Of a stretch of DNA of 64,000 nucleotides, positions 5,588 through 63,106 are shown in pieces. The translations under genes were made by a program, and so were the position numbers. The first letter of the stretch is position 1. Every line of letters begins with the position of its first letter. The stretch is from Rhodovulum robiginosum (GTDB taxonomy: Bacteria > Pseudomonadota > Alphaproteobacteria > Rhodobacterales > Rhodobacteraceae), in contig NZ_RWGU01000049.1 of assembly GCF_003944755.1 (NCBI RefSeq), forward strand, positions 1 to 64,000, written 5' to 3'. Under the pieces are notes generated by a model that ran no database searches, was not told the origin of the DNA, and saw only the letters and a list, made by a program, of their open reading frames with translations.

Positions 5588-5591
5588 TCCG

Positions 5592-6077: not shown

Positions 6078-6205
6078 GCGGACCCCCGGGTTGACGCGCA
6101 AAGTGTTAGCCCGAAGCGGGCCGCTTGAAAACCCGTGACGCAGCATCGGCTGGACCTTTCGCGGCCGGGGCGCTAGGTCACGTCCAGGAGAAGACGGAGG
6201 CGGTA

Positions 6206-6637: not shown

Positions 6638-6788
6638 GCGGCCGGACCTTTCGGGCCGGTCGTGGCGCGGCCAGACCCCGTGACCGGCGCGCGGCCCGTG
6701 GCACCGGATGCGTCTTTGGGTATTTTTGCCAAGAAGAAGCCAGGGCGCGGGACGCGGCCGGAGACCGGCAGGGCATTGCCGAGGCCGG

Positions 6789-7427
6789 TCAGCCCAGGCG
6801 CGCCAGCGCGGTTTCGAGATCGCCGTAACCGGTGAACCGGCGCTCGTAGTCCAGCCCCAGCCGCGCGGCGCAGTCGCGCGCCTTGGCCTCGAGCGCGGGA
6901 TCGTCGGTCTGCGCGAGGTAGACCAGTTTCTCGTAATTGCCGAAATAGGTCTTGGCCAGCTCGGGGTAGCGGTCGAGCCCGAGCGGGCGCCAGACGAAGG
7001 CGTCGAACTGGCGGGCGAGGAAATCGGTCAGGTAGAAGGCCGCGATCTCGTCATCGGCGCGGGCGGTGAAGCGGTCGAGCCCGTCGAAGAAGGCGTAGCA
7101 ATGGGGCCCGGCGATCATCGCCACGCCCAGCTCGGCGCAGGTGGCGGCGAGCCCGCCGCCGGTGCCGCAATCGGCGTAGGCCACGAAGATCGCATCGTAG
7201 GCGTCGCGGTGGCGCGCGACCGCCGCGCGCACGCCCGGCGCGATGCGCTCGGGGTGGTTGTGCCAGATCGCCGGCAGGCAGGCGAGGTCGAGGTGATCCC
7301 AGCCATTGGCGCGCTTGAGCGCGGTGATCTCGTGCGCCAGCGCGCCGCAGGCGATGACCAGGATGCGCCCGCGCCCGCGCGGGGGCAGTCCGGTTTCGGT
7401 GAGCGTCCGGTCGTCGGGGGAGGTCAT
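6789..7427 (-). CDS. DUF1638 domain protein of the corrinoid methyltransferase locus
   Basis: The 212-residue product matches DUF1638: ILVIACGALAHEI near the start, WHNHPERI, the Gly-rich YADCGTGGGL, and GPHCYAFFDG. Several conserved Cys and His residues could bind a metal or cofactor. DUF1638 genes are repeatedly found beside corrinoid-dependent methyltransferase genes, and that is the case here: the corrinoid protein is two genes upstream. The ATG at 7427 overlaps the stop of the 53-residue membrane protein (ATGA), so translation is coupled. A role in corrinoid or methyl-group metabolism is inferred only from the neighbourhood. Confidence 0.85.
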   Translation of the reverse strand: MTSPDDRTLTETGLPPRGRGRILVIACGALAHEITALKRANGWDHLDLACLPAIWHNHPERIAPGVRAAVARHRDAYDAIFVAYADCGTGGGLAATCAELGVAMIAGPHCYAFFDGLDRFTARADDEIAAFYLTDFLARQFDAFVWRPLGLDRYPELAKTYFGNYEKLVYLAQTDDPALEAKARDCAARLGLDYERRFTGYGDLETALARLG

Positions 7428-7585
7428 CGCCGCGATGACCAAAGGCGCACCGCCAGCGCCGCGGCCAGCACGACCGGCACCGCCACCGCCAGCGCGCCGC
7501 CGGGCAGGGCCGCGAGCACCCAGACCGTCGCCGCCGCGGCGGCGATGACCGTGGCGAGGATCAGGGCGAGGATGCGGATGGGCAT
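7424..7585 (-). CDS. Small (53-residue) membrane protein between corrinoid protein and DUF1638
   Basis: A short frame reads MPIRILALILATV and continues with two hydrophobic stretches (about residues 3-27 and 31-48), ending in a basic tail. The ribosome site AAGGAAGG sits five bases before the ATG, and the stop overlaps the DUF1638 start as ATGA. Both points argue that it is translated. It begins 36 bases after the end of the corrinoid gene. It looks like a two-helix hairpin membrane protein; no family is recognised. Its conservation in other DUF1638 loci has not been tested. Confidence 0.7.
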   Translation of the reverse strand: MPIRILALILATVIAAAAATVWVLAALPGGALAVAVPVVLAAALAVRLWSSRR

Positions 7586-47949: not shown

Positions 47950-48662
47950 CCCGCATGCTGTTTCGTGACGATGCGTACCGGTCCGAGGCGCCGGCCACCG
48001 TGACCGAGGTTGCCGAAGGCGGCGTCGCGCTCGACGCCACCCTTTTCTACCCGCGCGGGGGCGGCCAGCCCGGCGATTGCGGGCGACTGGTCTGGGCGGG
48101 CGGCGAAATGGCCGTGGCCGACACGGTGAAGGGCGCGGGCGCAGCTATCCTGCTGGTGCCTGCCGAGGGCGCGACACCGCCGCCGCCGGGCACCGCCGTC
48201 GTCCAGCATCTCGACTGGAACCGCCGCCACCGCCACATGCGCGTGCACACCGCGCTGCATCTGCTGTCGGTGGTTATTCCCCTGCCGGTCACGGGCGGCG
48301 CCATCGGCGCCGAGAAGGGCCGCCTCGATTTCGACATGGAAGAGGCCCCCGAAGACAAGGCCGCGCTGCAAGAGGCGCTGAACGCGCTGATCGCCCGCGA
48401 CCTGCCCGTCACCGAGGACTGGATCACCGATGACGACCTCGCCGCCAATCCCGGCCTGGTGAAAACCATGTCTGTCGCGCCTCCCACGGGGCAGGGCCGG
48501 GTGCGGCTGATCCGGATCGGGCAGGGCGATGCACAGGTCGACCTGCAGCCCTGCGGCGGCACCCATGTGGCGCGCACCGGCGAGATCGGGCCGGTGCGCC
48601 TGGGCAAGATCGAGAAGAAGGGCCGCCAAAACCGCCGGGTCAACCTGCATCTGGAGACCTGA
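47946..48662 (+). CDS. Alanyl-tRNA editing protein AlaX
   Basis: The 238-residue protein is a free-standing editing domain that removes serine or glycine from mischarged tRNA-Ala. Zn ligands are in RVHTALHLLS near residue 98 and QPCGGTHVA near residue 200. The N-terminal TLFYPRGGGQPGD is the conserved Gly-rich entry. It is coupled by ATGA to the MscS gene. Confidence 0.94.
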   Translation: MTRMLFRDDAYRSEAPATVTEVAEGGVALDATLFYPRGGGQPGDCGRLVWAGGEMAVADTVKGAGAAILLVPAEGATPPPPGTAVVQHLDWNRRHRHMRVHTALHLLSVVIPLPVTGGAIGAEKGRLDFDMEEAPEDKAALQEALNALIARDLPVTEDWITDDDLAANPGLVKTMSVAPPTGQGRVRLIRIGQGDAQVDLQPCGGTHVARTGEIGPVRLGKIEKKGRQNRRVNLHLET

Positions 48663-48717
48663 GCCCGTTTTCAGCCCCTTGCACAGGCCCGCCGTTGCAG
48701 GCTACACGAAGCGGCAC

Positions 48718-48807
48718 GGAGAGGTGGCCGAGTGGTCGAAGGCGCACGCCTGGAACGCGTGTAGGCGGGAAACCGTCTCCAGGGTTCGAATCCCTGTCTC
48801 TCCGCCA
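48718..48807 (+). tRNA. tRNA-Ser(GGA)
   Basis: A class II tRNA with a long variable arm: acceptor GGAGAGG/TCTCTCC, anticodon loop CTGGAAC with anticodon GGA, variable arm TAGGCGGGAAACCGTCTC, T arm GTTCGAAT, discriminator G and an encoded CCA. Its 3' end is the integration site of the mobile element that follows: the last bases are repeated at 56372. Confidence 0.96.
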
Positions 48808-48808
48808 C
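48794..48808 (+). repeat. attL: 15-bp direct repeat at tRNA-Ser 3' end
   Basis: CTGTCTCTCCGCCAC covers the T-arm end, acceptor 3' strand and CCA of the tRNA gene. It matches the copy at 56372-56386 exactly; flanking bases diverge on both sides. Confidence 0.85.
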
Positions 48809-48897
48809 TTTAGGCATTCGACGATCCATCCCAATATACTGATAGTGCGACGAAAATCGGCGTTTTCGCGCTGATGGCGGTGTTCGGTCCGCTTGAT

Positions 48898-48931
48898 TTG
48901 CTGCACATTTTGCTACACAATTTGCTGCACA
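48898..48931 (+). repeat. Left iteron array (three 10-mers, 12-bp spacing)
   Basis: TTGCTGCACA, TTGCTACACA and TTGCTGCACA start at 48898, 48910 and 48922, a 12-bp period that is close to one helical turn. The array lies between attL and the integrase start. The same unit occurs twice, with the same spacing, near attR. Likely integrase arm-binding or autoregulatory sites. Confidence 0.65.
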
Positions 48932-48950
48932 AATGGGGAATTTCTCCGCC

Positions 48951-50219
48951 ATGAGCATTGCCAAACGAGGCCGTCTTTTTCACCTCCGCCGCCGTGTGCC
49001 GCGCCGGTATCGAAGGATCGAGCCGCGCGAAACCGTCTGGATCAGCCTGCATACCGACTCGGAGACCATCGCCCGCAGCAAGGCGGATCGCGCGTGGAGC
49101 CAGATGATCGAGGCTTGGGAGGCGCGGCTGGCCGGGAACAGTGAAGATGCAGAGGCCCGCTACGAAGCCGCGCGCGACCTCGCCCGGGCGCGCGGCTTTC
49201 GGTATCTGGATGCGGGGGCGGTGGCCAAGTTGCCGGTTGAGGAAGTCGTCGAGCGCGTCGAGGCGATCCCAGCCCCGGCGAAGCAACCCGATGCCATCGA
49301 GGCCGCGGCCCTTCTCGGCACCGTTCCCGAGCCCCGCATCACGGTCACCAAGGCACTGGAACTCTACTGGGGCCTCGCCAAGGAAAAGACGCTGGGCAAG
49401 AGCGAGGATCAGCTGCGCCGCTGGGAAGCGCCCCGCAAGAAAGCCATCAAGAACTTTGTCGCAGTCGTCGGCAACAAGGAGATCGCCAACATCACCCGCG
49501 ACGACATGCTGGACTTCCGCCAGCACTGGCTCGACCGGATTGAGGCGGGCGAGGTCACGGCGAACTCGGCCAACAAGGACCTGATCCACCTGGGCGACGT
49601 GTTGAAGACCGTCACCACGATGAAGCGCCTTGGCCTCTCGCTGCCGCTGGGCGAGTTGTCATTCAAGGAGGGCGAGAAGCAGACGCGCCCGCCCTTCAGC
49701 GAGGACTGGATCAGGACGCGACTGCTCGCCCCCGGTACGCTGGACGGGTTGAACGGTCAGGCCCGCGCCCTGCTGCTCGGCATGATCAACACCGGCTATC
49801 GGCCGTCCGAGGGCGCGGCGCTGACGGCGGAGACGATCCGGCTCGACTGCGACGTTCCGCATATCTCGATCGAACCGGAAGGGCGACAATTGAAGTCGCA
49901 CTATGCCCGCCGCGTGATCCCGCTGACCGGTGTCTCGCTCGAGGCCTTCAAGCAGTACCCTCAAGGCTTCCCGCGTTACCGAAATCGGGCGACCCTCAGC
50001 GCAGTCGTGAACAAGTTCCTCCGCGCCAACGGCCTGCTCGAGACCCCGCGCCACTCGATGTATTCCCTGCGCCATGCCTTCGAGGACCGCATGCTCGCCG
50101 CCGGGATCGACGACCGGATCCGCCGCGACCTGTTCGGTCACCGGCTCGACCGCGAGCGATACGGTAAGGGCGCATCGCTGGAACACGTCGCAGAACTCGT
50201 CGCCCGCATTGCCTTCTGA
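48951..50219 (+). CDS. Tyrosine site-specific integrase (DUF6538 N-terminus)
   Basis: The 422-residue protein has an N-terminal DUF6538-type segment (RGRLFHLRRRVPRRYRRIEP), a SAM-like core-binding domain, and the catalytic domain with the first Arg in INTGYRPSEGAAL, the His-x-x-Arg-type box in YSLRHAFEDR, a His in LFGHRLD and the Tyr nucleophile in RERYGKG. It would catalyse integration at tRNA-Ser. Start 48951 is preferred from family consensus; an in-frame ATG at 48933 directly follows the iterons. Confidence 0.93.
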   Translation: MSIAKRGRLFHLRRRVPRRYRRIEPRETVWISLHTDSETIARSKADRAWSQMIEAWEARLAGNSEDAEARYEAARDLARARGFRYLDAGAVAKLPVEEVVERVEAIPAPAKQPDAIEAAALLGTVPEPRITVTKALELYWGLAKEKTLGKSEDQLRRWEAPRKKAIKNFVAVVGNKEIANITRDDMLDFRQHWLDRIEAGEVTANSANKDLIHLGDVLKTVTTMKRLGLSLPLGELSFKEGEKQTRPPFSEDWIRTRLLAPGTLDGLNGQARALLLGMINTGYRPSEGAALTAETIRLDCDVPHISIEPEGRQLKSHYARRVIPLTGVSLEAFKQYPQGFPRYRNRATLSAVVNKFLRANGLLETPRHSMYSLRHAFEDRMLAAGIDDRIRRDLFGHRLDRERYGKGASLEHVAELVARIAF

Positions 50220-50446
50220 GCCAGCAGCGCCCGCGCCCGGCGTTGCGCCTGCGACAGCCGCTTCTCTTTCTTCACGGCCGCAGCCAGTTCCGCCTCCAGC
50301 CGCTCGAAGACAGGTGCGAAGGTCGGGTCCTCCGCGACCAGCGCGGCGACTTTCACCAACGCCGCCTCGATCCGCGTGGCATCGATCGGCTGGGCCGGTT
50401 CGGTGCGTGTTGCTGATGGGCGCGACGGTGCCATGTCGAGCAACAT
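50138..50446 (-). CDS. Small hypothetical protein overlapping the integrase end
   Basis: The 102-residue frame has a coherent helical core (ATRIEAALVKVAALVAEDPTFAPVFERLEAELAAAVKKEKRL) resembling small conserved proteins that sit near relaxase genes in related elements. Its end overlaps the integrase gene by 82 bases in the opposite direction, and no good ribosome site is seen before the ATG at 50446 or 50434. The C-terminal 25 residues look like antisense shadow, so the true end might differ. Confidence 0.45.
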   Translation of the reverse strand: MLLDMAPSRPSATRTEPAQPIDATRIEAALVKVAALVAEDPTFAPVFERLEAELAAAVKKEKRLSQAQRRARALLAQKAMRATSSATCSSDAPLPYRSRSSR

Positions 50447-50959
50447 GAGGCGGCGCGTGCGTCTTGTGCAGAGCAAGCGAACACGCCGCGCAAAGCGACC
50501 TGTCACAGCGTGCAAATCGGATGGGATGATCGTGCGGCCTTGGACCGATATAGGTCGTCGGTGCCCTGACTTGGGCGGTCACTTCAGGATCACGACTCAT
50601 GCGTCCAGGAGCTTCGCCCGGGTCAGCATGTTTCGGCTATTGGGACAGCGAAAAACGCTCGCCTGGGAGGGCCGCGGGAGACGACAGGAGGGATGGCAAG
50701 ATAAAGCGAGTGCCTCGCTGGCCGGGCCTCTGGCCCTAAGCTGTTGTCTGCACATTGTTTTTTGAGCTCTATCGGAGTCGGCGTGCGAATATCGTGCGGC
50801 ATGGATCGACACTTTCTTCCATGAATTCAACACTCTTTCCTGCCACGCGGCGCCGCAACCGGGGAGCAACCTACGCTACGGCCTGTCTTTGCGCGCTAGG
50901 CTTCGATGGCCTCCTGACGCCCCTTGATCCGTCCCAATACGACCCCCAATCGTCTCTCC
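50447..50959 (+). other. Long non-coding gap before relaxase; possible oriT region
   Basis: No supported gene lies in these 513 bases. The position, directly upstream of a relaxase gene, is where a transfer origin usually sits. One short inverted repeat, GACC-GATATA-GGTC near 50538-50551, is visible, but no known nic consensus is recognised. Confidence 0.3.
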
Positions 50960-53044
50960 ATGACCCGCGACGAGACTGAGTTCCGCATCCGCCCCGGCAA
51001 GCCCCGGGATCACCAGCCGCGCACCTCGCGCGTGCGCCGCAAGCCGCAGGGCTTCCTTGCCCAAGTGCACCAGGCCGTGCGCCGCGCGGGTGGCGATCCG
51101 AACAAGTTGGCCGGGAAGGGAAAGGCAAGCGGACGGTACAACGCGCGCGGCCGGGGTGCGAAGGTGGCCGCCGAACTGAAAGGCCGGAACCCGTGGTCGC
51201 GCGGTCCGGACGGAAGCCGGACGCGCGCCCGACGGGTGACCGTGAAGGCGCGGATCGTGAAGCTCAACCCGCAGCGGGGCGCGGCGCGCGGGCGCTCCTT
51301 CGTCAGCGCCAAGGCGGTCGATGCGCATCTGCGCTACCTGGAACGCGATGGTGTCACGCGCGACGGTGAACGGGCCCAGGTCTATTCCGCGAGTGAGGAT
51401 GCCGCCGACGGTCGGGACTTCCTCGACCGCGGCCGCGACGACCGGCACCAGTTCCGCTTCATCGTCTCCGCCGAGGAAGGCGTCGAACTGTCCGACCTGC
51501 GCCAAACGACACGTGACCTGATGGCACAGATGGAGGTCGATCTGCAGACGCGGCTCGATTGGATCGCGGTCGACCATTACAACACCGGGCACCCGCACAC
51601 GCATATTTTGGTCCGCGGCGTGACCGACCAGGGGAAGATCCTGAACATCGCGGGCGACTACATCGCGCATGGCATCCGCGAATGGGCGAGCGAGATCGTG
51701 ACGCTTGAACTGGGCCGCCAGACCGAGCTGGAGGTCACCGACCAGCTGCGGCGCGAGGTCGAAGCCGACCGCTTCACACGTCTCGACCGCATGCTCATTG
51801 CCGAGCAGGAAGCCGCGAGCGAGTTCGCCGATCTGCGCCCGGATCACGACACGCTGGAGACCATGAAGCGCAACCGCGCGCTGCTGATCGCGCGCGCCCG
51901 GCGGCTCGAAAAGATGGGGCTGGCGACGGAAGTGCGGCCCGGCGAATGGCACATCTCCGATCGTGCCGAAGGCACCTTGCGCGCATTGGGCGAGCGCGAG
52001 GACATCATCAAGTCGATGCACCGGGCGCTGGACGGCAACGATCTCAACGATGCGCGCGGAACGTCCCAACTGGCGATGCATCGCGACAAGCTGCGCGAGC
52101 GGATCACCGGCCGGGTACTGGCGCGCGACCTCGCGGGCGACGGCAATAGCGACCGGGTGCAGCTGGTGATCGACGGTACGGATGGGCGCGTGCACCAGAT
52201 CGAGCTTCATGCGGATCGCTGCGACGGCATCGGTCGCGGCATGATCGTCGCCGCTGTGCCGCCACCGACCGACCCCCGCACGGCCGACCGGAACATCCTC
52301 GCTGCGACGGATAGCGACGGCACCTATCACCCGTCGCGGCATATCGAGATCGCCCGGGCAGAGAAGATCACGCCCGACCCGGAGCGCTTCGTCACCGCCC
52401 ATTTGCGCCGCCTCGAGGCCCTGCGCCGGGCCGGGATCGTGGAACGCTGGGGCGAGGATTACTGGAAGGTGCCGCAGGACCTGCCCGAACGCGGTCTGGC
52501 CCATGACCGGAAAGGACATGGCCCCGGCGCGCGGATGGAGATGCTCTCCCCCATCGGGCTGGACAAGCAGGTCACCCATGATGGCGCGACCTGGCTCGAC
52601 AAGGAGTTGATGCGACAGGGCAGTACCGATCTGCGAGAGACAGGCTTCGGGCTGGAGATGAAACGCGCCATGGGACGCCGCAAGCAGGTCCTCGTCCAAC
52701 GCGGCGATGTGCAAGACCTGGGCCAGGGCCGCATCCGCGCCGCGCGCGACCTCGTCCAGAGACTGGAAGCTCGCGAGATCGCCCGCGTCGGCCGCGCCAT
52801 GGCCGCGGACCGCGGCCGCGACTGGACCCCCATCAAACCCGGCAGCCGCTTCGGCGGAGAACTCGTCGGCAGCACCCAACTCCCCAGCGGCCGCTTCGCC
52901 ATGATCGACAACGGCCTAGGCTTCAGCCTCGTCCCCTGGAACGACGCTCTGGAACGACGGATCGGCCAGCAGATTGGGGGCGTCGGAATGCCGGGCGGTG
53001 GCGTTGACTGGTCGTTTAGGCGGAAGCGCGGGTTGGGTTTGTGA
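50960..53044 (+). CDS. VirD2-type relaxase with DUF3363
   Basis: The 694-residue protein carries the three-His relaxase motif DHYNTGHPHTHILVRG near residue 210, preceded by a basic N-terminal region, and a long C-terminal DUF3363-type domain (IVERWGEDYWKVPQDLPERGLAHDRK; GRFAMIDNGLGFSLVPW). It would nick DNA at an origin of transfer and pilot the strand to a helper conjugation system. No T4SS or coupling protein is encoded in the element. ATG 50960 fits the start; a frame extension to 50924 adds 12 residues. Confidence 0.9.
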   Translation: MTRDETEFRIRPGKPRDHQPRTSRVRRKPQGFLAQVHQAVRRAGGDPNKLAGKGKASGRYNARGRGAKVAAELKGRNPWSRGPDGSRTRARRVTVKARIVKLNPQRGAARGRSFVSAKAVDAHLRYLERDGVTRDGERAQVYSASEDAADGRDFLDRGRDDRHQFRFIVSAEEGVELSDLRQTTRDLMAQMEVDLQTRLDWIAVDHYNTGHPHTHILVRGVTDQGKILNIAGDYIAHGIREWASEIVTLELGRQTELEVTDQLRREVEADRFTRLDRMLIAEQEAASEFADLRPDHDTLETMKRNRALLIARARRLEKMGLATEVRPGEWHISDRAEGTLRALGEREDIIKSMHRALDGNDLNDARGTSQLAMHRDKLRERITGRVLARDLAGDGNSDRVQLVIDGTDGRVHQIELHADRCDGIGRGMIVAAVPPPTDPRTADRNILAATDSDGTYHPSRHIEIARAEKITPDPERFVTAHLRRLEALRRAGIVERWGEDYWKVPQDLPERGLAHDRKGHGPGARMEMLSPIGLDKQVTHDGATWLDKELMRQGSTDLRETGFGLEMKRAMGRRKQVLVQRGDVQDLGQGRIRAARDLVQRLEAREIARVGRAMAADRGRDWTPIKPGSRFGGELVGSTQLPSGRFAMIDNGLGFSLVPWNDALERRIGQQIGGVGMPGGGVDWSFRRKRGLGL

Positions 53045-53238
53045 GCCAACTCCCGCCCCCAAGGGCCACTGTTGCAGGACTTTTGCCGGAAAAAGCTTAA
53101 ACCTCCGCACGCACGATGCAGCAACTTAGCCGAGTGCACACCTTCTTCTTGATAGCATCCGATCAACAGCCATAGTAGTGTCGCTCGAAAACAATGGGAA
53201 ATCGACCCAGCCAACCAAGCCGGACCGTAAGGAAGTAG

Positions 53239-54132
53239 ATGCAGTTCGAAGATAACGAGTTAGACAAAGCGCTCCAGTCGGGTTTGGCGTCGCTTGATGC
53301 AAACCAAAATGCGCAAGCGACTAATGTGCACTTAGAACAGGGCGTCTCAGATGAGCGGCGAAAGTTCTTTGAAGATGAAGCATTTGCACCTTTGAGCAGC
53401 TCTTGGGGCGATTTAACGAGGCGCCACATTGACTATGTGAACCGGTATGTGAAGACGGATTTGGACCAGCCTCATACCTTTCAAGATACATTTGCACCCA
53501 ATGATGTTGGAGACATAGACCACGCGCAATTGATTGTTCGCTTGGAGGGCTTGGCTCGACCAATGTGGGAATTCGGTTGCACCTTTGACGAACTGAAAGC
53601 AGCTCGTGACGCCGATGACACCGTTTTTCTCGATGAGTTTTGCGAATTCTGGAATCAAAGACGCGATCTTAGACCCGCATTTTCAACGCTCCTTAGCGAA
53701 GTGAAAGATGAGATTGACCAGATTGATTGGGCTGACGCTTTGCGCGACCTGCTTGGTCTTGCCCACTATTCCGCGAATACGGCGCCAGAACCCGTGGCCT
53801 TGTGCAAGTATTCAGTCGCCGACGTCCGAAATGAAGCAACTACCGGTTTTCCAATCACCATGCCGACCGTCTTGGACAGCGAACCTTGGGAGCATTACTT
53901 TCCCGCTCCCAAGTCGCTGCAGTTTGGTCGCGCTATGGCTCTCACGCCCTGTGACGGTGACGAAAACTTGAAGGTGGAGTTTCTTAACTCTCGCGTGACA
54001 TACTCGCACAAAAACATCTGGAAAATCGGTATGATAGTGACACCGGCCCCTACCTCCGATATTAGCGACCTGCGCGCGCTGCACCTGCTAGCGCTGCAAA
54101 TCGCATCTGGCGATCATACGTTCGGAACATGA
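53239..54132 (+). CDS. Cargo gene A: unknown 297-residue protein
   Basis: No family is recognised. The protein is acidic, mostly helical in the first 200 residues, with no membrane helix or signal peptide, and has a beta-rich C-terminal part (ENLKVEFLNSRVTYSHKNIWKIGMIVTPAP). Base composition and codon use are more AT-rich than the host genes. Its stop overlaps the next ATG (ATGA), so it forms a tight pair with cargo gene B. The position inside a mobile element, next to attR, is where defence or other fitness genes are often carried; any such role is inference. Confidence 0.8.
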   Translation: MQFEDNELDKALQSGLASLDANQNAQATNVHLEQGVSDERRKFFEDEAFAPLSSSWGDLTRRHIDYVNRYVKTDLDQPHTFQDTFAPNDVGDIDHAQLIVRLEGLARPMWEFGCTFDELKAARDADDTVFLDEFCEFWNQRRDLRPAFSTLLSEVKDEIDQIDWADALRDLLGLAHYSANTAPEPVALCKYSVADVRNEATTGFPITMPTVLDSEPWEHYFPAPKSLQFGRAMALTPCDGDENLKVEFLNSRVTYSHKNIWKIGMIVTPAPTSDISDLRALHLLALQIASGDHTFGT

Positions 54133-56177
54133 CAGAAGCATTGAAACAAAAAGGCCCGGAGCGGCATCCTTGGCTCGAAGTACTTGAGGCTTCGCCGGAG
54201 GCGTCTGTGTCTGATCTCATGGCGGGCTACGCTGCCGTGTTCCCGTATACACGCGCCGATGCTCCGGATGCTGCTCGCACGCTCGTCGGCCATTTACCTG
54301 CCGAAGACCCGGCGCGAATAGCCTTGGCCTCAGGCATTCTGTCCTGGCTTCGAATGAAACGCGACGAGCACCTACCTGCCGATCGGGCCAGACTACAGGA
54401 TTTCATTCGCCAGGTCTCAGAAGCATTCGAAATCATTGCTCTTCTCGATCAGACCGAGCCGGCCCTCGAATTGCGCGACAAATACGTACGATGGTTCGCG
54501 TGGGCGAACCGGTTGAACCTGACACCTTCTCGGGACGCGCGGGCCAGTTACTTCCGCATGCTCGCCAACACGCAACCGATCCTTGCAGAGCGTCTTGCCG
54601 ATCCCGACGCCCTCGCACCCTTCTGGATGCGCCTTTGCAGGGAGTCTGGCTCCACCTATCCAAAAGGGTACTTGCAGATCGGATTGCTGGGCCTTCGTCG
54701 GTTGCCTGGTGCAATCGAGCGCGGCGAGCGACCTTGGATTGCCGGGCTTGCGGCTTGGGCACTCGAACAGGCTCCCTCGGACAAGGAGTTCATGCGGGCT
54801 TGGTCGCCGTTGAAGCGACTGCATCCCGCAGGACCAAAAGTTCTGCGGCAAAATGTATTCAATGTCCTCTCGCAAAAGACCTATGTGGACGCTGGGATAG
54901 AAACGCCCGGTTGGTGGGCAAGCGATCCAGTGTTCCCCAAATTGCAAGACTCCAAAGGGCGTGCTCATTCGCTTGAACCACCGGCACCGGAGCTGCGTGA
55001 GAGCATCATTCATGACCTTCGTGACGGCGTCCGATTTTCAGATTTGGATGATCGGTTGAACACGATGGTGGAGCGCTACGAACGTTATACTGACGCGACC
55101 GGAGACGTCTATTTTCTGGTGCGATCTTTCTGTAACGTGGGCAACATTCTGCTTCGGAATTCTGTGAATGATCACAGTGAAGTAGCACGTTTTGCGCAGA
55201 ATTTGGCTCGCAAAACACTGCGATATCAACCCCGCAACCCGATTGCATGGGGGCTTTGGCGCGACGCGCTGTTTAGTGGCGGCGCTTACGATGCTGCGGT
55301 CGCGCTTGGATGGGAAACAGTTCGCCGGTTTCCGAGTAATCCGTTGATGCGCAACGAATTGGCTGAAATCCTGATTGCGCTGGATCAAGCAGACGTGGCT
55401 TTGGCCTTGCTCGACGACGCAATTGAGGCGCAGGCTTTCAATGCCGTGACCTACGCAATTCTTGCCCGCCTCTTGGCCAATAGGGGAGATATGGAAGCAG
55501 CGCGCACGGCAATTGAAGATGGCCTCACGATCGACTCTGAGAATGCTATTCCGACGCAATGGCGCTCCTACTTGGATGATGGCAAACCGCTCCCTCTATT
55601 GGCCGCTGCTCGGAAAAGAGTGATTGACGCTGTCGATGCCGATTCAAGCGACGAAGTAATCGCGGAACTCGGACGCAGTGGACATCTGCGGCACTTGCGT
55701 CAGCGCCTGCAGAGTGATGCATCTGCCGTTGAGGAGTTGCAGGAGATACTGAATACCGACCCGAGCTTTGCCTATGCTCAAATCCTCGCAGCGCGACACA
55801 ACCTCTGGCATGCGTCAGAACAGGCGCTTCCGCCAGTTGCCGCCGCTTTCGAAGAGGCGCTCGCGAGCGAGGACATCGAACGGCTGACTGCGCTGACGGA
55901 ACAGATGCCGCGGTTGGAGTCGTTGATCTTGCTCGCACGGGCCATTCTTGGAGACGCAGTTGCTGCACGCGAAATCGATGGCCGCTTGCGCAGCCCCAGC
56001 GCAATGGACGATGCTCGAGCCATCGAAATCCTTCAAAGCCGCTTCCAACCTGTTTTCGAGTTGATCGACGGAGGTCTGGAACCCTCTGAGGCAGTAAGCG
56101 AGTATGCAGACCAGCTTCGCATAGCGATCTATGACACCAATGAAGCCGTTTCAGCCCCGGAACTCTTGGTGGCGTGA
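54129..56177 (+). CDS. Cargo gene B: unknown 682-residue TPR-like protein
   Basis: The protein is almost all helix. Residues from about 380 to 470 contain tetratricopeptide-like pairs (NPIAWGLWRDALFSGGAYDAAVALGWETVRRFPSNPLMRNELAEILIALDQADVALALLDDA; then another at AVTYAILARLLANRGDMEAARTAIEDGLTID), and helical repeats continue to the end. No enzyme motif or membrane helix is seen. It starts in the ATGA overlap with gene A. TPR arrays bind partners, so a complex with A is the natural guess. Low-GC, foreign-looking. Confidence 0.82.
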   Translation: MTEALKQKGPERHPWLEVLEASPEASVSDLMAGYAAVFPYTRADAPDAARTLVGHLPAEDPARIALASGILSWLRMKRDEHLPADRARLQDFIRQVSEAFEIIALLDQTEPALELRDKYVRWFAWANRLNLTPSRDARASYFRMLANTQPILAERLADPDALAPFWMRLCRESGSTYPKGYLQIGLLGLRRLPGAIERGERPWIAGLAAWALEQAPSDKEFMRAWSPLKRLHPAGPKVLRQNVFNVLSQKTYVDAGIETPGWWASDPVFPKLQDSKGRAHSLEPPAPELRESIIHDLRDGVRFSDLDDRLNTMVERYERYTDATGDVYFLVRSFCNVGNILLRNSVNDHSEVARFAQNLARKTLRYQPRNPIAWGLWRDALFSGGAYDAAVALGWETVRRFPSNPLMRNELAEILIALDQADVALALLDDAIEAQAFNAVTYAILARLLANRGDMEAARTAIEDGLTIDSENAIPTQWRSYLDDGKPLPLLAAARKRVIDAVDADSSDEVIAELGRSGHLRHLRQRLQSDASAVEELQEILNTDPSFAYAQILAARHNLWHASEQALPPVAAAFEEALASEDIERLTALTEQMPRLESLILLARAILGDAVAAREIDGRLRSPSAMDDARAIEILQSRFQPVFELIDGGLEPSEAVSEYADQLRIAIYDTNEAVSAPELLVA

Positions 56178-56276
56178 CTTCGATGCTTTTTTGGCGACCT
56201 GCGGTAGGGGGCCTCCTGACCAAAAACCTCGCACGGCTATCCACCTGATTAATTCGGATGGCCCACCCTGAGCTTT

Positions 56277-56298
56277 TTGCTGCACATTTTGCTGCACA
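56277..56298 (+). repeat. Right iteron pair (12-bp spacing)
   Basis: TTGCTGCACA occurs at 56277 and 56289, in the same orientation and spacing as the left array; the 23-base block TTGCTGCACATTTTGCT(G/A)CACAA is shared with one mismatch. It lies 73 bases inside attR. Confidence 0.65.
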
Positions 56299-56371
56299 AA
56301 CCGCAACACGAGAAGCCCATTATTTTCGCAAATTCAGTCATTTAGGTACATGGAAAGAAAGCACTTTCGGA

Positions 56372-56386
56372 CTGTCTCTCCGCCAC
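56372..56386 (+). repeat. attR: 15-bp direct repeat
   Basis: CTGTCTCTCCGCCAC is an exact copy of the tRNA-Ser 3' end, in the same orientation. It sits between the cargo operon and a terminator and is not part of a complete tRNA. Confidence 0.85.
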
Positions 56387-56411
56387 CTGCCCCCGCGAAA
56401 GCGTTCTCCCG

Positions 56412-56433
56412 ATCCGGCTCCGGCCGGATTTTT
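56412..56433 (+). terminator. Rho-independent terminator, probably native to tRNA-Ser
   Basis: ATCCGGC and GCCGGAT form a seven-base-pair stem with loop TCCG, followed by TTTT. It lies 26 bases after attR, the distance expected for a terminator behind the tRNA before the element inserted. Confidence 0.75.
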
Positions 56434-56684
56434 CCGTTGTTTTCGAGGGTTATGCGGGACGGGCTGAGCACCGACCTCGGTGCCCGGAGGCCCGGAGGCG
56501 GTCTCTCATTGCCGGTATTCTCTGGACCTCATGACTGCGGGAGTTTGGTGTTCAGGTTGCAAGACTCTGAAATAAGATGGCTTTTCGGAGTTCCCGGCTA
56601 AACACTTCGGCGCCAGTGGCGTGCGCAAGATGACACTCAGATCGAACTTTCAACAGGCGCATTATACCCTGAGGGCTGAACCAA

Positions 56685-57182
56685 TCAGCTGGACGAGCTG
56701 ACATATTCGCCTTCTCCTGTAGGTGGCGAGACCCCGCGTTCGCCGAGCTCGAGCGTCTCCGTTTCGGAGAGCAACCAAGTTGAAAGCTGGTCGGCCGCTG
56801 CCGCGATCTGTTCCGGTTTTCGAAGGGCACACTCCCAGATCGTCGCTACGCGCCAGCCCGCCGCAAGCAGCGCGCCCCGAACCGCGCTGTCCCGCGCAAC
56901 GTTCGCGTCGAACTTTGCCTGCCAGAACGCTACGCGCGTCGCGGGAGTGGTAGCGTAGCGGCACCCCTCATGCCGATGCCAGAAACACCCGTGCACAAAG
57001 ATGACCGCGCGGTGCTTCGGGAGGACGAGGTCAGGCCTACCTTTGACTTTCTTCGAGTGAAGACAGTAGCGGAAGCCGCGTGCGTGCAGCGCCCGCCGAA
57101 GAGCCATCTCAGGCTTCGTGTTCTTTCCCTTGATCCCAGCCATCATCCGCGAACGAGTGACGGCGTCGACGACATCAGACAT
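56685..57182 (-). CDS. vsr: Very short patch repair endonuclease
   Basis: Vsr nicks T:G mismatches that arise by deamination of 5-methylcytosine. The 165-residue protein has SRMMAGIKGKNTKPEMALRRAL, GFRYCLHSKKVKGRPDLVLPKHRAVIFVHGCFWHRHEGC and the Zn-binding Cys/His set. The presence of a C5 methyltransferase in the same cluster explains its role. The last 20 residues are a non-conserved tail. Transcribed away from the endonuclease gene. Confidence 0.94.
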   Translation of the reverse strand: MSDVVDAVTRSRMMAGIKGKNTKPEMALRRALHARGFRYCLHSKKVKGRPDLVLPKHRAVIFVHGCFWHRHEGCRYATTPATRVAFWQAKFDANVARDSAVRGALLAAGWRVATIWECALRKPEQIAAAADQLSTWLLSETETLELGERGVSPPTGEGEYVSSSS

Positions 57183-57420
57183 ATACTAAGCTTAAGCCAG
57201 TTCGATTGACGATGCATACTCCTGCGGGGGCAGCAGTCGCTGCACAATCGATCTCGTTCCGCGGTGGCCCAGGCGCCAGGAGGTCAATCGCGTGAAGACC
57301 GTTGGAGATGCTCCGTTTTGCGGTCAAGCCTCCTGTAAGGGGCAGTGTGGCTGTCTGGGTCTAGATGATCTTGCTTGTCTGACCTAGGAGGGAGTTCGAG
57401 AAGATCCGAATGGAAGTCAC

Positions 57421-58368
57421 ATGGCAAAAAGAGCACGAAAGGCCCGACTCTACGGTGCCGACGGCGTTCCCGCTCCTGAGTTCAACAGGATGGTCAAGAG
57501 CTGGCTTGAAGGCGACCTCCCAATAAGGGAACACACAAGTCCTGCAGCATTCGATGGCGTTCGCCAGAAGTACATGGAAGCAGTGGATGTCGCAATCTCA
57601 GCTGGCCTTGATCGAGCCATCGCGCACAGGGAGGCTCTAAATAAGCTGACAGAGCTTCTGTTTGGCTACGATATTGCAGAAGAGCTCGCCGAGAGACTGA
57701 ATCCTGGCCTCGTAAACGAAGCAGGATTCAGAACCACCCTTTCGCAAGGCGTTGCCAAGAATGTTGGCGAGAACTTTGTAAATCTTATTGTCTATGCTTT
57801 GGCCGACACGCTTTCGGATCAGGACGAGATTCTCATAGACAAGGGCCTTCCACCCGCACTGAAAGCCGCTCTTGAGTTGAGAAGGACCGTTCCACTTAAG
57901 ACGGGAGATATGGACATCTCTATCCCAATTGAAGGGGACATGGCCATATTCTCCAGAAGAAATCCGCTTAATGCGGTAGTCATCAGCGCGAAGACTCGTT
58001 TAAAAGAAGTTTTCCACATTGGGACCATGTGGAAGCTTCTGTTTGACACAATTGATGATGAGTATTGCCTGGACAAATGGGGACTCACGGCACCCGCTGG
58101 CTCAGACGTCTCGGAAGTGCTTTACGTGTTTGCCACAGCCGACATGGTCAGGGAAGGTGGTAGAAATAGTCAAGGACCAGATGTAGAACGCGACATGCCG
58201 CGAAACCTCATAGCTATGGACGCATCTTTCTTCGACTACGTTTTTGTCTCGAAGGTCGGAATCCCCCACGTCGAAAACAAGATTTCTCTAGCAGAGCGTG
58301 GCGCTCTCTTTCACGAGCTTGGGTGTTTGATTGACCTTATCAAGCTCAAATTCCCGCTCCCAAAATAG
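57421..58368 (+). CDS. Putative type II restriction endonuclease (BsaWI-like)
   Basis: The 315-residue protein has a PD-(D/E)xK-like core: EGDMAIF near residue 171-177, and VVISAKTRLKEV with Ser189, Lys191 and Glu196. The AKTRLKEVFHIGTMWKLLFD stretch resembles BsaWI-family enzymes, which cut CCGG-containing sites. GGAAG precedes the ATG. It converges on a C5 methyltransferase gene with 25 bases between, giving a complete R-M pair. AT-richer than the host. The site recognised cannot be read. Confidence 0.72.
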   Translation: MAKRARKARLYGADGVPAPEFNRMVKSWLEGDLPIREHTSPAAFDGVRQKYMEAVDVAISAGLDRAIAHREALNKLTELLFGYDIAEELAERLNPGLVNEAGFRTTLSQGVAKNVGENFVNLIVYALADTLSDQDEILIDKGLPPALKAALELRRTVPLKTGDMDISIPIEGDMAIFSRRNPLNAVVISAKTRLKEVFHIGTMWKLLFDTIDDEYCLDKWGLTAPAGSDVSEVLYVFATADMVREGGRNSQGPDVERDMPRNLIAMDASFFDYVFVSKVGIPHVENKISLAERGALFHELGCLIDLIKLKFPLPK

Positions 58369-58393
58369 ATACGTTTATCTTGCATAGTGGCTG

Positions 58394-60625
58394 TCAGCTC
58401 GCAGAAAGAAGATCTGTCTTATGATTGGCACATTCCCCCTCGTGCGGGAAGATTTGAATTTCTTCTGCAAGCTCGGAAATCCGCGCGGCAAACAAGCGAG
58501 ACAACAAAGGTGGCACGGCATTTCCTATAGCTGAGTACGTATCTACGACCCCTGAAACATCAAAACGGAAAAAATCAGGGAACGATTGGACGCGAGCCGC
58601 TTCCCTGATGGTCAGAGACCGAGGCTCCGTCGGGTGCCAGTATGCATAGGTATCCTTGCCGATGTGTGCCACGATAGTCCTGCACGGCTTTGTTGCAGAA
58701 AGCCGTTCGAACCAGTCGCCATGTGTTGATCCACCGTTCTTCAGGTAGCCTTCGAGCAACAAGTGCTGTTCAGGAAGTTTGAACCTCTCCTTGGTGTGCT
58801 CCAAAAGGAGACGAAGCATCAGGCTTCCATCTACTTTGCCAAGCAGATTCTCAAGTGCGTGCTTTGTCTTTGACGATTGAACCTCTTCAATGGCGGCTTC
58901 TATGCCGTCTCTTAGGTCCTGAAGGGTCTGCGAACGGTCAACTTTGAGATCCATCCACCTTATACCAGGGGCGACAAAAGACGCGAAGACGCGATCATCA
59001 TCACGCGGCTTTCGGAAGATGTGAGCATCAGTAGCGGCTGGCCTTACTCCAGAGACGGGGTCAGGCTGCTGAACCCAAGACAGATAATCACGTTGCTCCG
59101 GAGGAAGCTTGGGATCCCAAACGTCGTACACTGCGCTTGAATGATCTGTCTTTATCCCACCCTTTGGATCAAACTCTTGCGGATCAGACAAGCCAGTGAG
59201 CGCCACACGCAGAGGCACGTCCGCAGCAGCGGACTTAAGTTCAAAGAACTTCGAAGCAATATTGTGAGGAGCAGCCCCAGCCTTCGCGCCAAACATTATG
59301 AAGCGGCGACGGTCTTGAGGTACCGCATAATCACGAGCGTTAATGACCTGGTGACTGACATGATACGTCAGTTTATCGGTGGCCAATTCTTCAATCAGCT
59401 CAACTAGCAAGGCGGGAGCATCGAAGGTGCCATTCGGAGTTTTTAGTGCCGACTGGAAGTTGGATACATTCTCAAAGAGGAATACTTCGGGCTGAAGCGC
59501 CTCGAGAAAGAGCACATATTGCACCATGAGAGCATTGCGCTCGTCACCATATTCTTTGTGCGACCACGCATGCACTCCTTGGTCTCGGAGGCTTTGGATT
59601 ACCGGTCGCCCAATACGGCTGAATCCCTTGCACGGTGGTCCGCCGAGCACGATGTGCGCCCGATATCGATCAAAATAGAGCTCCTCAAGCTGCGACTTGT
59701 TTTCAAGGCAGAATTCGGCACGGACAGATGCACGTGAGGCACGCCAATCGATCCATGCTTCCTTCAGCCTGGAAAATGCGTCGGTGCTCAGAAACTCACA
59801 AAGTCGTGTAAGGCGTTTCGAGTTGTTAGAATTCTGGCCGCGGCCAGATTTACCGGCGGCTTCTTGGATTTCATTGAATCGTGCTGACCACTCTTGTTCC
59901 ATATCATGGACCAGTTCACGATTTGGAAAACCAAGGGCTGGTTCCCCCTCGGCGTTTTCGAGGAGGCTTTCACACTCTTCACCCCACGGGAGACTCCGCG
60001 TGCTTGCCAACGGCCTACTGAACGAGGAAACTCCTAACCTGTTTACGAACGCTTTGACTAAAGCGAGTGTGAAAGTCTGCGGCGGTACACGAGACAACTC
60101 TTCTACGTAGTCATCACTTTGCGAAATCTCGGCAGCAAGTGATGAGAATTTTTTGTCGATATTGCGAATTCGCGCAAGAAATTCCGACAAGCCGATTTCA
60201 TTGAGGCGCTCGAATAGCTCGGGATGGAAAGACGAACCCGCGAGGTGAACGAGATAAAAAAGGCGTATCTCAGTAGGGTGCTGGAACCATGTCATATCAG
60301 CGACACGGCCGATAGGCAGTGAAGCTCGGTCGCCAAGGCTGCGAAAGTTCCTGTTGAAGATCTTAATTGCCGATGGATCGTTATCGATCCCGAGAACTGT
60401 TTTGAACCGCCTAGCGCCATTGAAATTATCAAAGCCGCATGAGAGGCCGCCGGCTCCGCAAAAAAGGTCGACGACCCGCAGTGTATCTTGAAGGGGACGT
60501 TCGGGAAGCGAGCGGTAATAGTTCACAGGACTTGCTTTCTTGCTTTGCTCTCGTTTCGCTGCGGCTGGCGTTGTTGTCCCGCAACCCTTGGCTAGGCGCG
60601 CGACCCCGCGATGACGCAGGCTCAT
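58394..60625 (-). CDS. DNA (cytosine-5)-methyltransferase with large insertion
   Basis: The 743-residue enzyme has C5-methyltransferase motifs: I (VVDLFCGAGGLSCGF, about 51-65), IV with the catalytic Cys (VLGGPPCKGFS, Cys near 332), VI (ENV), VIII (QVINARDYAVPQDRRRFIMFG), IX (TIREAARVQSFPDFF) and X (AIGNAVPPLLSR). Motifs I and IV are normally 60-80 residues apart; here about 200 extra helical residues lie between. The first 40 residues have no family similarity; a GTG at 60628 or an internal GTG near VNYYRSL are other possible starts. It would protect the site cut by the neighbouring endonuclease. Confidence 0.92.
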   Translation of the reverse strand: MSLRHRGVARLAKGCGTTTPAAAKREQSKKASPVNYYRSLPERPLQDTLRVVDLFCGAGGLSCGFDNFNGARRFKTVLGIDNDPSAIKIFNRNFRSLGDRASLPIGRVADMTWFQHPTEIRLFYLVHLAGSSFHPELFERLNEIGLSEFLARIRNIDKKFSSLAAEISQSDDYVEELSRVPPQTFTLALVKAFVNRLGVSSFSRPLASTRSLPWGEECESLLENAEGEPALGFPNRELVHDMEQEWSARFNEIQEAAGKSGRGQNSNNSKRLTRLCEFLSTDAFSRLKEAWIDWRASRASVRAEFCLENKSQLEELYFDRYRAHIVLGGPPCKGFSRIGRPVIQSLRDQGVHAWSHKEYGDERNALMVQYVLFLEALQPEVFLFENVSNFQSALKTPNGTFDAPALLVELIEELATDKLTYHVSHQVINARDYAVPQDRRRFIMFGAKAGAAPHNIASKFFELKSAAADVPLRVALTGLSDPQEFDPKGGIKTDHSSAVYDVWDPKLPPEQRDYLSWVQQPDPVSGVRPAATDAHIFRKPRDDDRVFASFVAPGIRWMDLKVDRSQTLQDLRDGIEAAIEEVQSSKTKHALENLLGKVDGSLMLRLLLEHTKERFKLPEQHLLLEGYLKNGGSTHGDWFERLSATKPCRTIVAHIGKDTYAYWHPTEPRSLTIREAARVQSFPDFFRFDVSGVVDTYSAIGNAVPPLLSRLFAARISELAEEIQIFPHEGECANHKTDLLSAS

Positions 60626-60736
60626 CACCCAACCCTCAAATACACGATAGTGGGCTTGGGCTCAAAGGTGAAGACAATATCTTGACAGAGGAGGCGGAGG
60701 AAAGATGGACGGTGAGGGCTCGCTGCGTGGCCACTA

Positions 60737-61150
60737 TCAGCAAGCAGCATCCGTGTCCGCATCTTGGCTTTGGAGGATGAGGTGCTGGCGGCTCCAGCGC
60801 GCCTCCCTTAGTTTGAGCAATCCGGCCAGCGTCGCCCCCGGTGCCTGCTTCCCGTCTAGGATCGCTTCGACGATGTCGGGCGCGAGCAGCGTGAGCCGCA
60901 AGACGCGGGTCATGTAGGAGGGCGCGATCCCCTCGCGCTCGGCCAGTTCGGCAATGGTTGCGAACTCGCCCGACTCCAGCATGCGTTTCCAGCGGAAGGC
61001 GCGCGCCAGCGCCTTGACCAGCGTGTTGTCAGTCCGCCGTGGTTGCACAGCGCCCTCGGGCATCTTCATCTCTTTCCGCCCGCCGCGCTTCACGATGCGG
61101 AACGGGACGTGGAGTGTCACGATGTCGGGGACTGGCGCGCCGCATGTCAC
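60737..61150 (-). CDS. HTH protein coupled to serine recombinase
   Basis: The 137-residue product contains a helix-turn-helix segment, TIAELAEREGIAPSYMTRVLRLTLLAPDIVEAILDG, of the ParB/KorB-like or sigma-4-like sort that commonly follows large serine recombinases in alphaproteobacterial elements. The GTG start at 61150 overlaps the recombinase stop (GTGA). It probably binds DNA as an accessory or regulatory factor. Confidence 0.85.
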   Translation of the reverse strand: MTCGAPVPDIVTLHVPFRIVKRGGRKEMKMPEGAVQPRRTDNTLVKALARAFRWKRMLESGEFATIAELAEREGIAPSYMTRVLRLTLLAPDIVEAILDGKQAPGATLAGLLKLREARWSRQHLILQSQDADTDAAC

Positions 61151-62457
61151 GCTGCTTCTCCGATTCCACCGGCCAGCATCTCGCGGGCCAGACCGCCGAG
61201 GCCGTCGACGCGCAGGCGGACGTTTAGCCCGTCCACGCCGATGTCGACCCGCTCGACCAGCAGCGCCACGATGCGCGCCTGCTCGGCCGGGAACAGTTCG
61301 TCCCACAGCGGGTCGATCTGGTGCAACGCTGCGCGGGCGTCGGTCTCGGTGATGGCGTCGGCATGGGCGCGCGCCGCCTTCCACGTGCCCGCTACGATCT
61401 CGGGCTGGCGGAACACGGCGCGGAGCTGGTCGATGACGGCCGCCTCGATCTCGCCCGCGGGCACGCGGCCGACCGGGCACGATCCGGCGCCGTGCTTCAG
61501 CACGGTCTGGCTGACGTAGTAGCGATAGAGCTTCCCGCCCTTGCGGGTATGCGTCGGGGAGAAGGCCGCGCCGTCTGGGCCGAACAGCAGGCCCTTCAGC
61601 AAGGCGGGCGTCTCGGCGCGGGTGCGCGCGGCGCGCTTTCGCGGGCTCTCCTGCAGGATGGCGTGGACGCGATCCCACGTCTCTCGGTCGATGATCGCGC
61701 CGTGCTCGCCCGGGTAGCTCTCGCCCTTGTGGACCGCCTCGCCGATGTAGGCGCGGTTGTTCAGCATCCGGTAGAGGTATTTCTTGTCGATCCGGTTGCC
61801 GCGGGGCGTGCGGATGCCGCGCTTCGCCACCTCGCGGGCCAGTTCAGTGCCCGAGCCGATCTCGAGGAAGCGGGCGAAGATCCAGCAGACATGCTCGGCG
61901 GCTTCGTCATCGATCACCAGCTTCCGGTTCTGGACCCGATAGCCGTAGGGCGGCACCCCGCCCATCCACATGCCCTTCTTTCGGCTGGCGGCGACCTTGT
62001 CGCGGATGCGCTCGGCGGTGACCTCGCGCTCGAACTGGGCGAAGGACAGGAGGATGTTGAGCGTCAGTCGCCCCATGGACGTGGTCGTGTTGAAGCTCTG
62101 CGTGACCGAGACGAAGGTCACACCGTTTCGGTCGAACACCTCGACCAGCTTGGCGAAATCCGCCAACGAGCGGCTGAGCCGGTCGATCTTGTAGACCACG
62201 ACCACATCTACGAGCCCGTCTTCGATGTCCTCCAGCAGCCGCTGCAGGCCGGGGCGCTCGAGCGTACCGCCGGAGATGCCGCCGTCATCATACTGGTCGC
62301 GGACCGGCACCCAGCCCTCGGATCGTTGGCTGGCGATGAACGCCTCGCAGGCCTCGCGTTGGGCGTGAAGGGAGTTGAACTCCTGCTCGAGCCCTTCCTC
62401 CGAGGATTTCCGAGTGTAGATCGCGCAGCGCTGCTTGCGGACGACCGGCTTGGTCAT
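61147..62457 (-). CDS. Large serine recombinase
   Basis: The 436-residue protein has the resolvase catalytic domain with the Ser in CAIYTRKSSEEG near residue 18, and YDDGGISGGTLERPGLQRLLEDIE and VVYKIDRLSRSL. A recombinase domain (GVPPYGYRVQNRKLVID) and a C-terminal region follow. The usual zinc-ribbon Cys set is reduced. It would integrate or excise an element by serine chemistry. The ATG overlaps the DUF2924 stop, and the stop overlaps the HTH start. Confidence 0.95.
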   Translation of the reverse strand: MTKPVVRKQRCAIYTRKSSEEGLEQEFNSLHAQREACEAFIASQRSEGWVPVRDQYDDGGISGGTLERPGLQRLLEDIEDGLVDVVVVYKIDRLSRSLADFAKLVEVFDRNGVTFVSVTQSFNTTTSMGRLTLNILLSFAQFEREVTAERIRDKVAASRKKGMWMGGVPPYGYRVQNRKLVIDDEAAEHVCWIFARFLEIGSGTELAREVAKRGIRTPRGNRIDKKYLYRMLNNRAYIGEAVHKGESYPGEHGAIIDRETWDRVHAILQESPRKRAARTRAETPALLKGLLFGPDGAAFSPTHTRKGGKLYRYYVSQTVLKHGAGSCPVGRVPAGEIEAAVIDQLRAVFRQPEIVAGTWKAARAHADAITETDARAALHQIDPLWDELFPAEQARIVALLVERVDIGVDGLNVRLRVDGLGGLAREMLAGGIGEAA

Positions 62458-62906
62458 GTCCGCCTCCGCCGGTTCTTAAGACCGAAGAACACGAGCCCGT
62501 TCCACCTCGTGCCGGTGATGGCGCGGGCGATGGCGGACAGCGACTTGTAGGGCCGCCCCTGCCATTCGAAGCCGTCCGCGGTGACGGTGACGACGTGTTC
62601 GACGCCCTGCCACTCGCGGATCAGCCGGGTGCCGGCGATGGGCATGGTGTCGGCGCGGACGCGGCTCTTTTTCCTGTCACCGCCGTCGAGCTCTTCGCCC
62701 AGCCGCTCCAGCCGCCGGATCGTCTCGGGCTTCAGGCCGCCATAGGCGAGTTCTTGGATGCGGTATGCGAGCCGGCTCTCCAGGTAGCGTCGGTTGAACG
62801 GCGGCGGCTCGCTGTCGAACAGGTCGCGCCACTGCGCCTTCAGCTCCGGCGTCGTCGCGGTCTTCAGCGCGGCCAGGCGCGCGGGAATGGGATCGTGGGT
62901 CGTCAT
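62454..62906 (-). CDS. DUF2924 protein of recombinase module
   Basis: The 150-residue product matches DUF2924: ARLAALKTATTPELKAQWRDLFDSEPPPFNRRYLESRLAYRIQELAYGGL, then GTRLIREWQGVEHVVTV and YKSLSAIARAITGTRWNGLVFFGL. The second half resembles a small DNA-binding fold found beside serine recombinases. GGAG is seven bases before the ATG. Coupled on both sides by ATGA overlaps. Function is unknown but linked to the recombinase. Confidence 0.92.
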   Translation of the reverse strand: MTTHDPIPARLAALKTATTPELKAQWRDLFDSEPPPFNRRYLESRLAYRIQELAYGGLKPETIRRLERLGEELDGGDRKKSRVRADTMPIAGTRLIREWQGVEHVVTVTADGFEWQGRPYKSLSAIARAITGTRWNGLVFFGLKNRRRRT

Positions 62907-63106
62907 GCGGGTCTCCGGTGAGTTGGAGTTGCATGACGGCATCGGTCGGTCGGAGAGTGTAGGCAACTTTCTCCAGTATCGTCAGATACTTCGCCCGTCT
63001 CCCGCATCCGCAACCGAACCAGCCCGAGCGCCAGCAATCCGCACAGCTCGGCGCGGCGTTCGGCGGCGGTCATCCGGTCGGGCGGCAGGGGATTGGGGCG
63101 CTTCAT
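62903..63106 (-). CDS. Small first protein of recombinase module
   Basis: The 67-residue product starts MKRPNPLPPDRMTAAERRAELCGLLALGLVRLRMR, a sequence type that regularly precedes DUF2924 and recombinase genes. Its stop overlaps the DUF2924 start as ATGA. A longer frame to 63199 has no similarity. It is probably a helical accessory protein. No function is known. Confidence 0.75.
   Translation of the reverse strand: MKRPNPLPPDRMTAAERRAELCGLLALGLVRLRMRETGEVSDDTGESCLHSPTDRCRHATPTHRRPA

Follow-up and report, generated by a model that had tools for sequence, protein, structure and literature searches.

What do two overlapping genes of low GC content do as the cargo of a small mobile element inserted at a serine tRNA gene? 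The question is raised by a 64,000-nucleotide stretch of Rhodovulum robiginosum DNA (contig NZ_RWGU01000049.1, positions 1 to 64,000; hereafter the window), in which a gene pair, here called A and B, follows an integrase gene and a relaxase gene. The open reading frames (ORFs) described in the initial annotation, of 297 and 682 amino acids with an ATGA overlap, are borne out by their coordinates, as is their position between the RlxS-like relaxase and the right-hand attachment (att) repeat, attR. Both genes lie below the GC content of the host (0.512 for A and 0.571 for B, as against 0.678 in window bases 1-48000), which also holds in comparison with the mobility genes (integrase 0.657, relaxase 0.681). 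The mobile element at tRNA-Ser was likewise confirmed: it is 7.6 kb long and has at both ends a 15-bp exact repeat of the tRNA 3' end, a repeat found on average 0.00 times across 100 shuffles. Between the att sites there are four long genes and one small ORF, and no conjugation apparatus, so that A and B are the sole non-mobility genes if only long genes are counted, but not if the 125-residue ORF beside the integrase is included. Judged by its gene content, the element is a small integrative mobilizable element (IME) with A-B as cargo. As argued below from sequence comparison, A-B is probably a so far undescribed two-gene immunity module, which moves as a unit and serves as cargo of several kinds of mobile element.

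We first consider the two proteins. A had no match in Pfam, NCBIfam, PADLOC or PHROGs, and comparison of its profile with the PDB gave nothing credible (best E-value 0.35, then 0.013 in another search). The latter match, to erythronolide synthase, covers a 60-residue piece and was taken as chance. Conservation of A is best over residues 151-297, i.e., its C-terminal half, and among its polar residues R145, R169, Y191, D213, E247, R279 and H282 are conserved most strongly. An AlphaFold check of A, run with five sequences, yielded no usable fold (pLDDT 44), and for this reason the model was excluded from fold searches. For B, the same check gave an all-helical model with a mean pLDDT of 67. The initial annotation had placed neither protein in a known family; this stands for A but not for B, which is matched by tetratricopeptide repeat (TPR) models, best over residues 383-448; PF14559 (TPR_19) scores 25.5 bits against a cut-off of 25. 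PF14559 was also matched at an E-value of 0.01 by 16 of the 19 B sequences, and a fold search with the B model had among the matches listed superhelical repeat proteins, which we take to be TPR-type, at TM-scores below 0.5. On these profile and fold matches we assign B to the TPR superfamily, as a predicted helical repeat protein. Its homologues are 655-804 residues long, one contig-end fragment excepted, and the C-terminal part is the region of greatest variability in the conservation profile. No NTPase model matched window B at an E-value of 1, nor was one among the matches listed for the 19 B sequences (25 of 34 families); similarly, no CHAT protease domain was found for window B in Pfam or among the matches listed for the 19 sequences. 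Both proteins are soluble and for the most part acidic; by hydropathy, no signal peptide or membrane segment was apparent in any of the 21 A and 19 B sequences, no dedicated predictor being used. No characterised housekeeping or metabolic pair matched A-B in the libraries searched, and we recognised no description of the pair in the literature, where A has no name to search by.

The pair does occur elsewhere. In single-sequence searches, 2 of 385 genomes at class level and 3 of 390 at order level proved to contain A. With a seven-row profile, the gene was detected in 15 of the 398 phylum genomes; the own genome is counted each time. Further copies came from contig scans, in Pseudochelatococcus lubricantis and in three IMG/VR contigs beyond the window's own record. 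With the window counted once, there are 25 A loci, and B or a piece of B adjoins A at 24 of them. The single A without B (L055, 8003-9127) is a divergent homologue of 374 residues beside genes resembling nif genes. Copies in three loci are broken or fragmentary (L015, L017, L056), four others lie at contig ends (L042, L046, L047, L053), L045 contains a run of unread bases, and A of L050 has only 201 residues. Distance matrices of A and B agree closely (r 0.95, Mantel p 0.0001, 16 pairs); here L042, L050 and L053 were dropped as incomplete, L045 and L047 entered the A alignment only, and L046 was kept although truncated by the end of its contig. Purifying selection acts on both genes: in five close pairs, of which three lie among L016, L020 and L021, dN/dS is 0.13-0.31 for A and 0.19-0.31 for B. 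It is well supported that A-B is a conserved pair outside the libraries searched. Two tightly coupled soluble genes of matching divergence, patchily distributed on mobile elements and decayed in L015, L017 and L056, would also be expected of a toxin-antitoxin-type addiction module, in which one protein is toxic, the other (B, by wrapping) neutralises it, and the pair stabilises the element. We consider such a module unlikely: B is large and variable for an antitoxin, A stands without B in L055, and tblastn with window A, window B, A of L021 and A of L044 gave no match in 72,556 plasmid records. Addiction and defence are, moreover, not mutually exclusive. A tblastn search of 50,697 phage records with window A, window B and A of L021 gave no match either.

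A second setting of the pair bears on its function. In L016, L017, L020, L021 and L022, A-B (broken in L017) lies in either orientation between the genes for the terminase large subunit and the portal; terminases were identified through matches to annotated phage terminases, while portal, capsid, primase and integrase genes were named by eye. The L016 element, approximately 16.7 kb from tRNA-Met to int, carries integrase, primase-like, TerS/TerL, A-B, portal and capsid genes and has little room for a tail module. Capsid-forming phage-inducible chromosomal islands have integrase, primase, terminase, portal and capsid genes and no tail genes, and the L016 element resembles such a capsid-forming satellite. 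We then examined what the same slot holds in relatives, taking, from at least 600 contigs whose terminases are related (59-96% identical), the 80 best and adding L020 and L022; 72 of these 82 had a portal match, and removal of L151 (portal on the wrong side) and L022 (same contig as L140) left 70 slots. A protein with a methyltransferase motif was present in 49 of the 70 (50 of 70 if L022 is counted and L173 is not). At the level of ORFs of at least 180 residues, the motif occurred in 53 of 147 inside the slot vs 7 of 445 outside it (Fisher p 2e-28), a crude test, since ORFs were called mechanically, related elements are non-independent and the outside set includes conserved phage genes. With redundancy removed, 19 of 79 slot protein clusters have the motif. 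PADLOC and Pfam scans covered 79 of the 100 slot clusters, A, B and 19 short-ORF clusters being left out, and among the matches listed (25 of 443 and 25 of 68 families) were models for EcoRI, XhoI, XamI, PstI-type, MmeI, Eco57I and type I restriction as well as mad2. A-B itself occupies 3 of the 70 slots, namely L021, L020 and L140, of which L140 is the sole unbiased find because the search started from L021, and L020 was added by hand.

The position of A-B among packaging genes in several elements could also suggest that the pair serves the element rather than the host, as a regulator, a packaging or transfer accessory, or a counter-defence of satellites and IMEs; anti-defence genes, too, occur in hotspots of mobile elements. 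We regard this as improbable, since A-B is also found in the unrelated, relaxase-bearing element of the window and at chromosomal sites flanked by housekeeping genes, where no mobility genes were recognised in the vicinity, and the same slot in relatives often holds restriction genes. As a separate observation, the slot measures approximately 0.3-7.7 kb in L021 (2477-6121) and contigs L096-L174, often with restriction-modification genes.

Relatives of the window element provide a further comparison. Of 228 genomes of the family, 42 (the own genome included) contain relatives of the window integrase, and we read 14 of the corresponding stretches, with ORFs listed for five. Eight of the stretches have a called tRNA-Ser; the search for a second att site in these eight succeeded for one, L206, whose integrase is 95% identical to that of the window. 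There, the cargo next to attR consists of Drt3a (E 7e-54) and Drt3b (E 7e-116), as identified by PDB matches; DRT3 is a known anti-phage system. By eye, L206 also encodes a 279-residue PD-(D/E)XK nuclease-like protein and a 970-residue UvrD-like helicase (3679-7518); near other close relatives of the window integrase, L207 has both genes and L209 the small one. The own genome carries a second integrase, 96% identical, at another tRNA-Ser (L205, contig C48), with a gene resembling a KAP-type P-loop NTPase downstream by eye; a second att site was sought in L205 and none was found.

A-B also occurs at chromosomal loci in another order. In this order A is found in 14 of 48 genomes, a count that includes the solo A and a fragment, and it is patchy within genera. 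At L044, A-B lies between genes resembling glmM and thrS, and in a genome of the same genus these flanks are adjacent, with 228 bp between them, which makes a clean empty site. The ends of the L044 insertion showed no direct repeat of at least 9 bp and one 8-bp inverted match. A same-genus genome without A-B is also available for L048, but its right flank differs as well, so this site is not cleanly empty. B is followed, in two genomes of a single genus, by a gene resembling a helix-turn-helix (HTH) repressor (L049, 12128-12793; L051, 6429-7115; by eye), and it is possible that it encodes a regulator of the module. That the pair stands between housekeeping genes in one order, and that some satellite-like slots carry metabolic genes, would fit a metabolic or stress-response islet of two genes that has spread horizontally, for instance a TPR co-chaperone and its client, TPR proteins often being co-chaperones or scaffolds. 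This explanation appears very unlikely to us, given that A has no metabolic domain in the libraries searched, that the pair is patchy within genera, and that it shares a cargo slot rich in methyltransferase-motif proteins.

A-B is most simply read as a defence module because the pair is kept together across distant Proteobacteria, is patchily distributed, and occupies cargo positions that hold restriction or DRT genes in relatives. The initial annotation had proposed a defence or competition system; the genomic context gives this proposal clear, though indirect, support through the terminase-portal slot and through DRT3 in a related element, while the function itself we still infer. Such association with defence genes is present at these places and not at every locus. 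A-B would protect the host, and hence the element, against phages or rival elements. The two soluble proteins would form a cytosolic complex, in which the helical repeat protein B would act as sensor or scaffold, either holding A inactive or recruiting it, and A would be the effector acting upon infection. B suits the former part because it belongs to the helical repeat proteins and varies most towards its C-terminus, and A the latter because its conservation is best over residues 151-297; even if the defence reading is granted, we put forward this division of labor tentatively and would lean somewhat away from it. The most specific version of the proposal, for which we see about equal grounds to accept and to doubt, is an undescribed immune system with an effector A of a new family without detectable relatives and a TPR sensor-scaffold B, the cassette being swapped between IMEs, capsid-forming satellites and chromosomes of distant Proteobacteria, partly via an alphaproteobacterial terminase-portal defence slot.

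Several observations weigh against a defence module. At the protein level, A gave a low-confidence model and has no recognisable catalytic motif; an E-x2-H-x8-H pattern is kept in most other members, and the window copy has N for both His. PADLOC-DB 2.0.0 (2023) contains no full-length model match for A or B. The matched A and B distances are also expected under simple joint inheritance, and A stands alone in L055. Neither the window relaxase nor A-B was found in any of the 14 integrase-related stretches, and the DRT3 parallel rests on one element. In the slot, 60 of the 79 clusters are without the methyltransferase motif, as are A and B themselves, and metabolic families such as DHDPS, DAO and peptidase M19 are among the matches listed for some slots. 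Lastly, the neighbors of A-B in the order with chromosomal loci are, by eye, mostly housekeeping genes, with no recognisable defence islands.

Should A-B prove defensive, it would be an additional two-component system whose effector family is missing from all the libraries searched, and it comes with a ready set of homologues, natural broken copies included, for comparison. The terminase-portal slot would in that case be a productive place for finding further defence genes, and the unclassified genes in several such slots are defence candidates.

The features of the window element are collected in the following table. Promoter and terminator scans of 52900-56500 remained at or below shuffle levels, and an Rfam scan of 48600-61000 for an RNA component gave the tRNA alone.

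Features of the A-B element of Rhodovulum robiginosum (window coordinates)
Feature	Position	Strand	Remarks
tRNA-Ser (gga), attachment gene	48718..48807	+	ARAGORN, Rfam
attL core CTGTCTCTCCGCCAC	48794..48808	+	3' end of tRNA-Ser(gga)
Three TTGCTRCACA repeats, 12-bp period, inside attL	48898..48931	+	
Tyrosine integrase (DUF6538 + Phage_integrase)	48933..50219	+	
Small ORF, 125 aa, beside integrase	50138..50515	-	Conserved near close integrase relatives
Relaxase, RlxS-like (DUF3363)	50924..53044	+	Pfam PF11843 3e-118
Gene A	53239..54132	+	297 aa, soluble acidic protein, pI 4.6, no known family; ORF call
Gene B	54129..56177	+	682 aa; predicted all-helical; N-terminal region ~1-340, then the TPR part and a C-terminal part of greater variability; ORF call
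TPR part of B	55149..55553	+	Residues ~341-475; Pfam and PDB profile matches
Two TTGCTGCACA repeats inside attR	56277..56298	+	
attR core CTGTCTCTCCGCCAC	56372..56386	+	Exact 15-bp copy of attL core

The TTGCTRCACA repeats, which are probably integrase arm sites, are present just within both element ends. A tRNA-Ser att repeat of its own, 19 bp long, occurs in L206, and there, as in the window element, the att core is preceded by a ACTTTCGGAC motif and the TTGCTRCACA repeats; together, the repeats inside both ends and the corresponding features of L206 support the attR boundary. The small ORF is likely to be a genuine gene belonging to the integration module, because copies 77-92% identical to it adjoin the integrase in 5 of the 14 related stretches. 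The relaxase matched NF041267 at 7e-177, yet fell under the curated cut-off of that model. One 55.7-kb IMG/VR viral contig, IMGVR_UViG_2894590789_000001 (L005, L019), starts at the window integrase, as judged by the offset of its A and B matches. The viral call at the start of this contig is doubtful, since the contig start corresponds to the putative IME. Outside the element, an ordinary type II restriction-modification set occupies 56685-60628, starting approximately 300 bp beyond attR. It includes vsr, a PfoI-like restriction enzyme (E 3e-113 to 6ek1, without a Pfam match) and a 744-residue C5-methyltransferase, with GC contents of 0.51-0.63. Adjoining this set, a large serine recombinase and a DUF2924 protein (61147-62966) possibly belong to a second element.

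How does A-B compare with known systems? Zorya ZorC (EH signature) gave a weak PADLOC match (E 0.0013) in one of 21 A homologues; kinship was rejected, as profile-profile comparison with five ZorC-type proteins, EH-signature proteins taken from other genomes, gave a probability of 0.05% and no HMM match. The PADLOC candidate PDC-M71B was matched by 4 of 19 B homologues at E-values of at most 0.1, the best being 2.5e-11 in L044. This alignment, the one read of the four, spans 56 residues (503-558) in the repeat region and leaves the N-terminal region of B uncovered, so that the likeness there concerns repeat residues only and B was not equated with PDC-M71B. TPR-CHAT (Craspase) differs from B in its CHAT protease domain. 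DRT3, a two-gene system beside attR in the element with the 95%-identical integrase, is a positional analogue of A-B in that one element, but consists of reverse transcriptases with no recognised similarity to A or B.

With NLR-type systems the likeness lies in the repeats: in LypABC, a TPR superhelix is the putative sensing part (PMC13236601). These systems differ in that B has no NTPase among the Pfam matches listed and A is no known NLR partner. The closest parallels of setting come from P4-like satellites and P2-like phages, as described in the accessible portion of one study, where variable loci of approximately 1-5 kb between two conserved genes hold differing anti-phage systems, the P2 hotspot lying near cos between gpA and the portal gene gpQ (PMC9122126). 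A-B is not among the systems named for these hotspots in that portion, and the satellite-borne TIR-STAND-TPR protein described there, whose TPRs were suggested to be infection sensors, has the TPR in common with B and an NTPase domain of a class not seen in B (PMC9122126). The slot of A-B differs in belonging to another satellite-like family, where it lies between the genes for the terminase large subunit and the portal, but like the P4 and P2 hotspots it is a small variable locus between conserved phage or satellite genes (PMC9122126).

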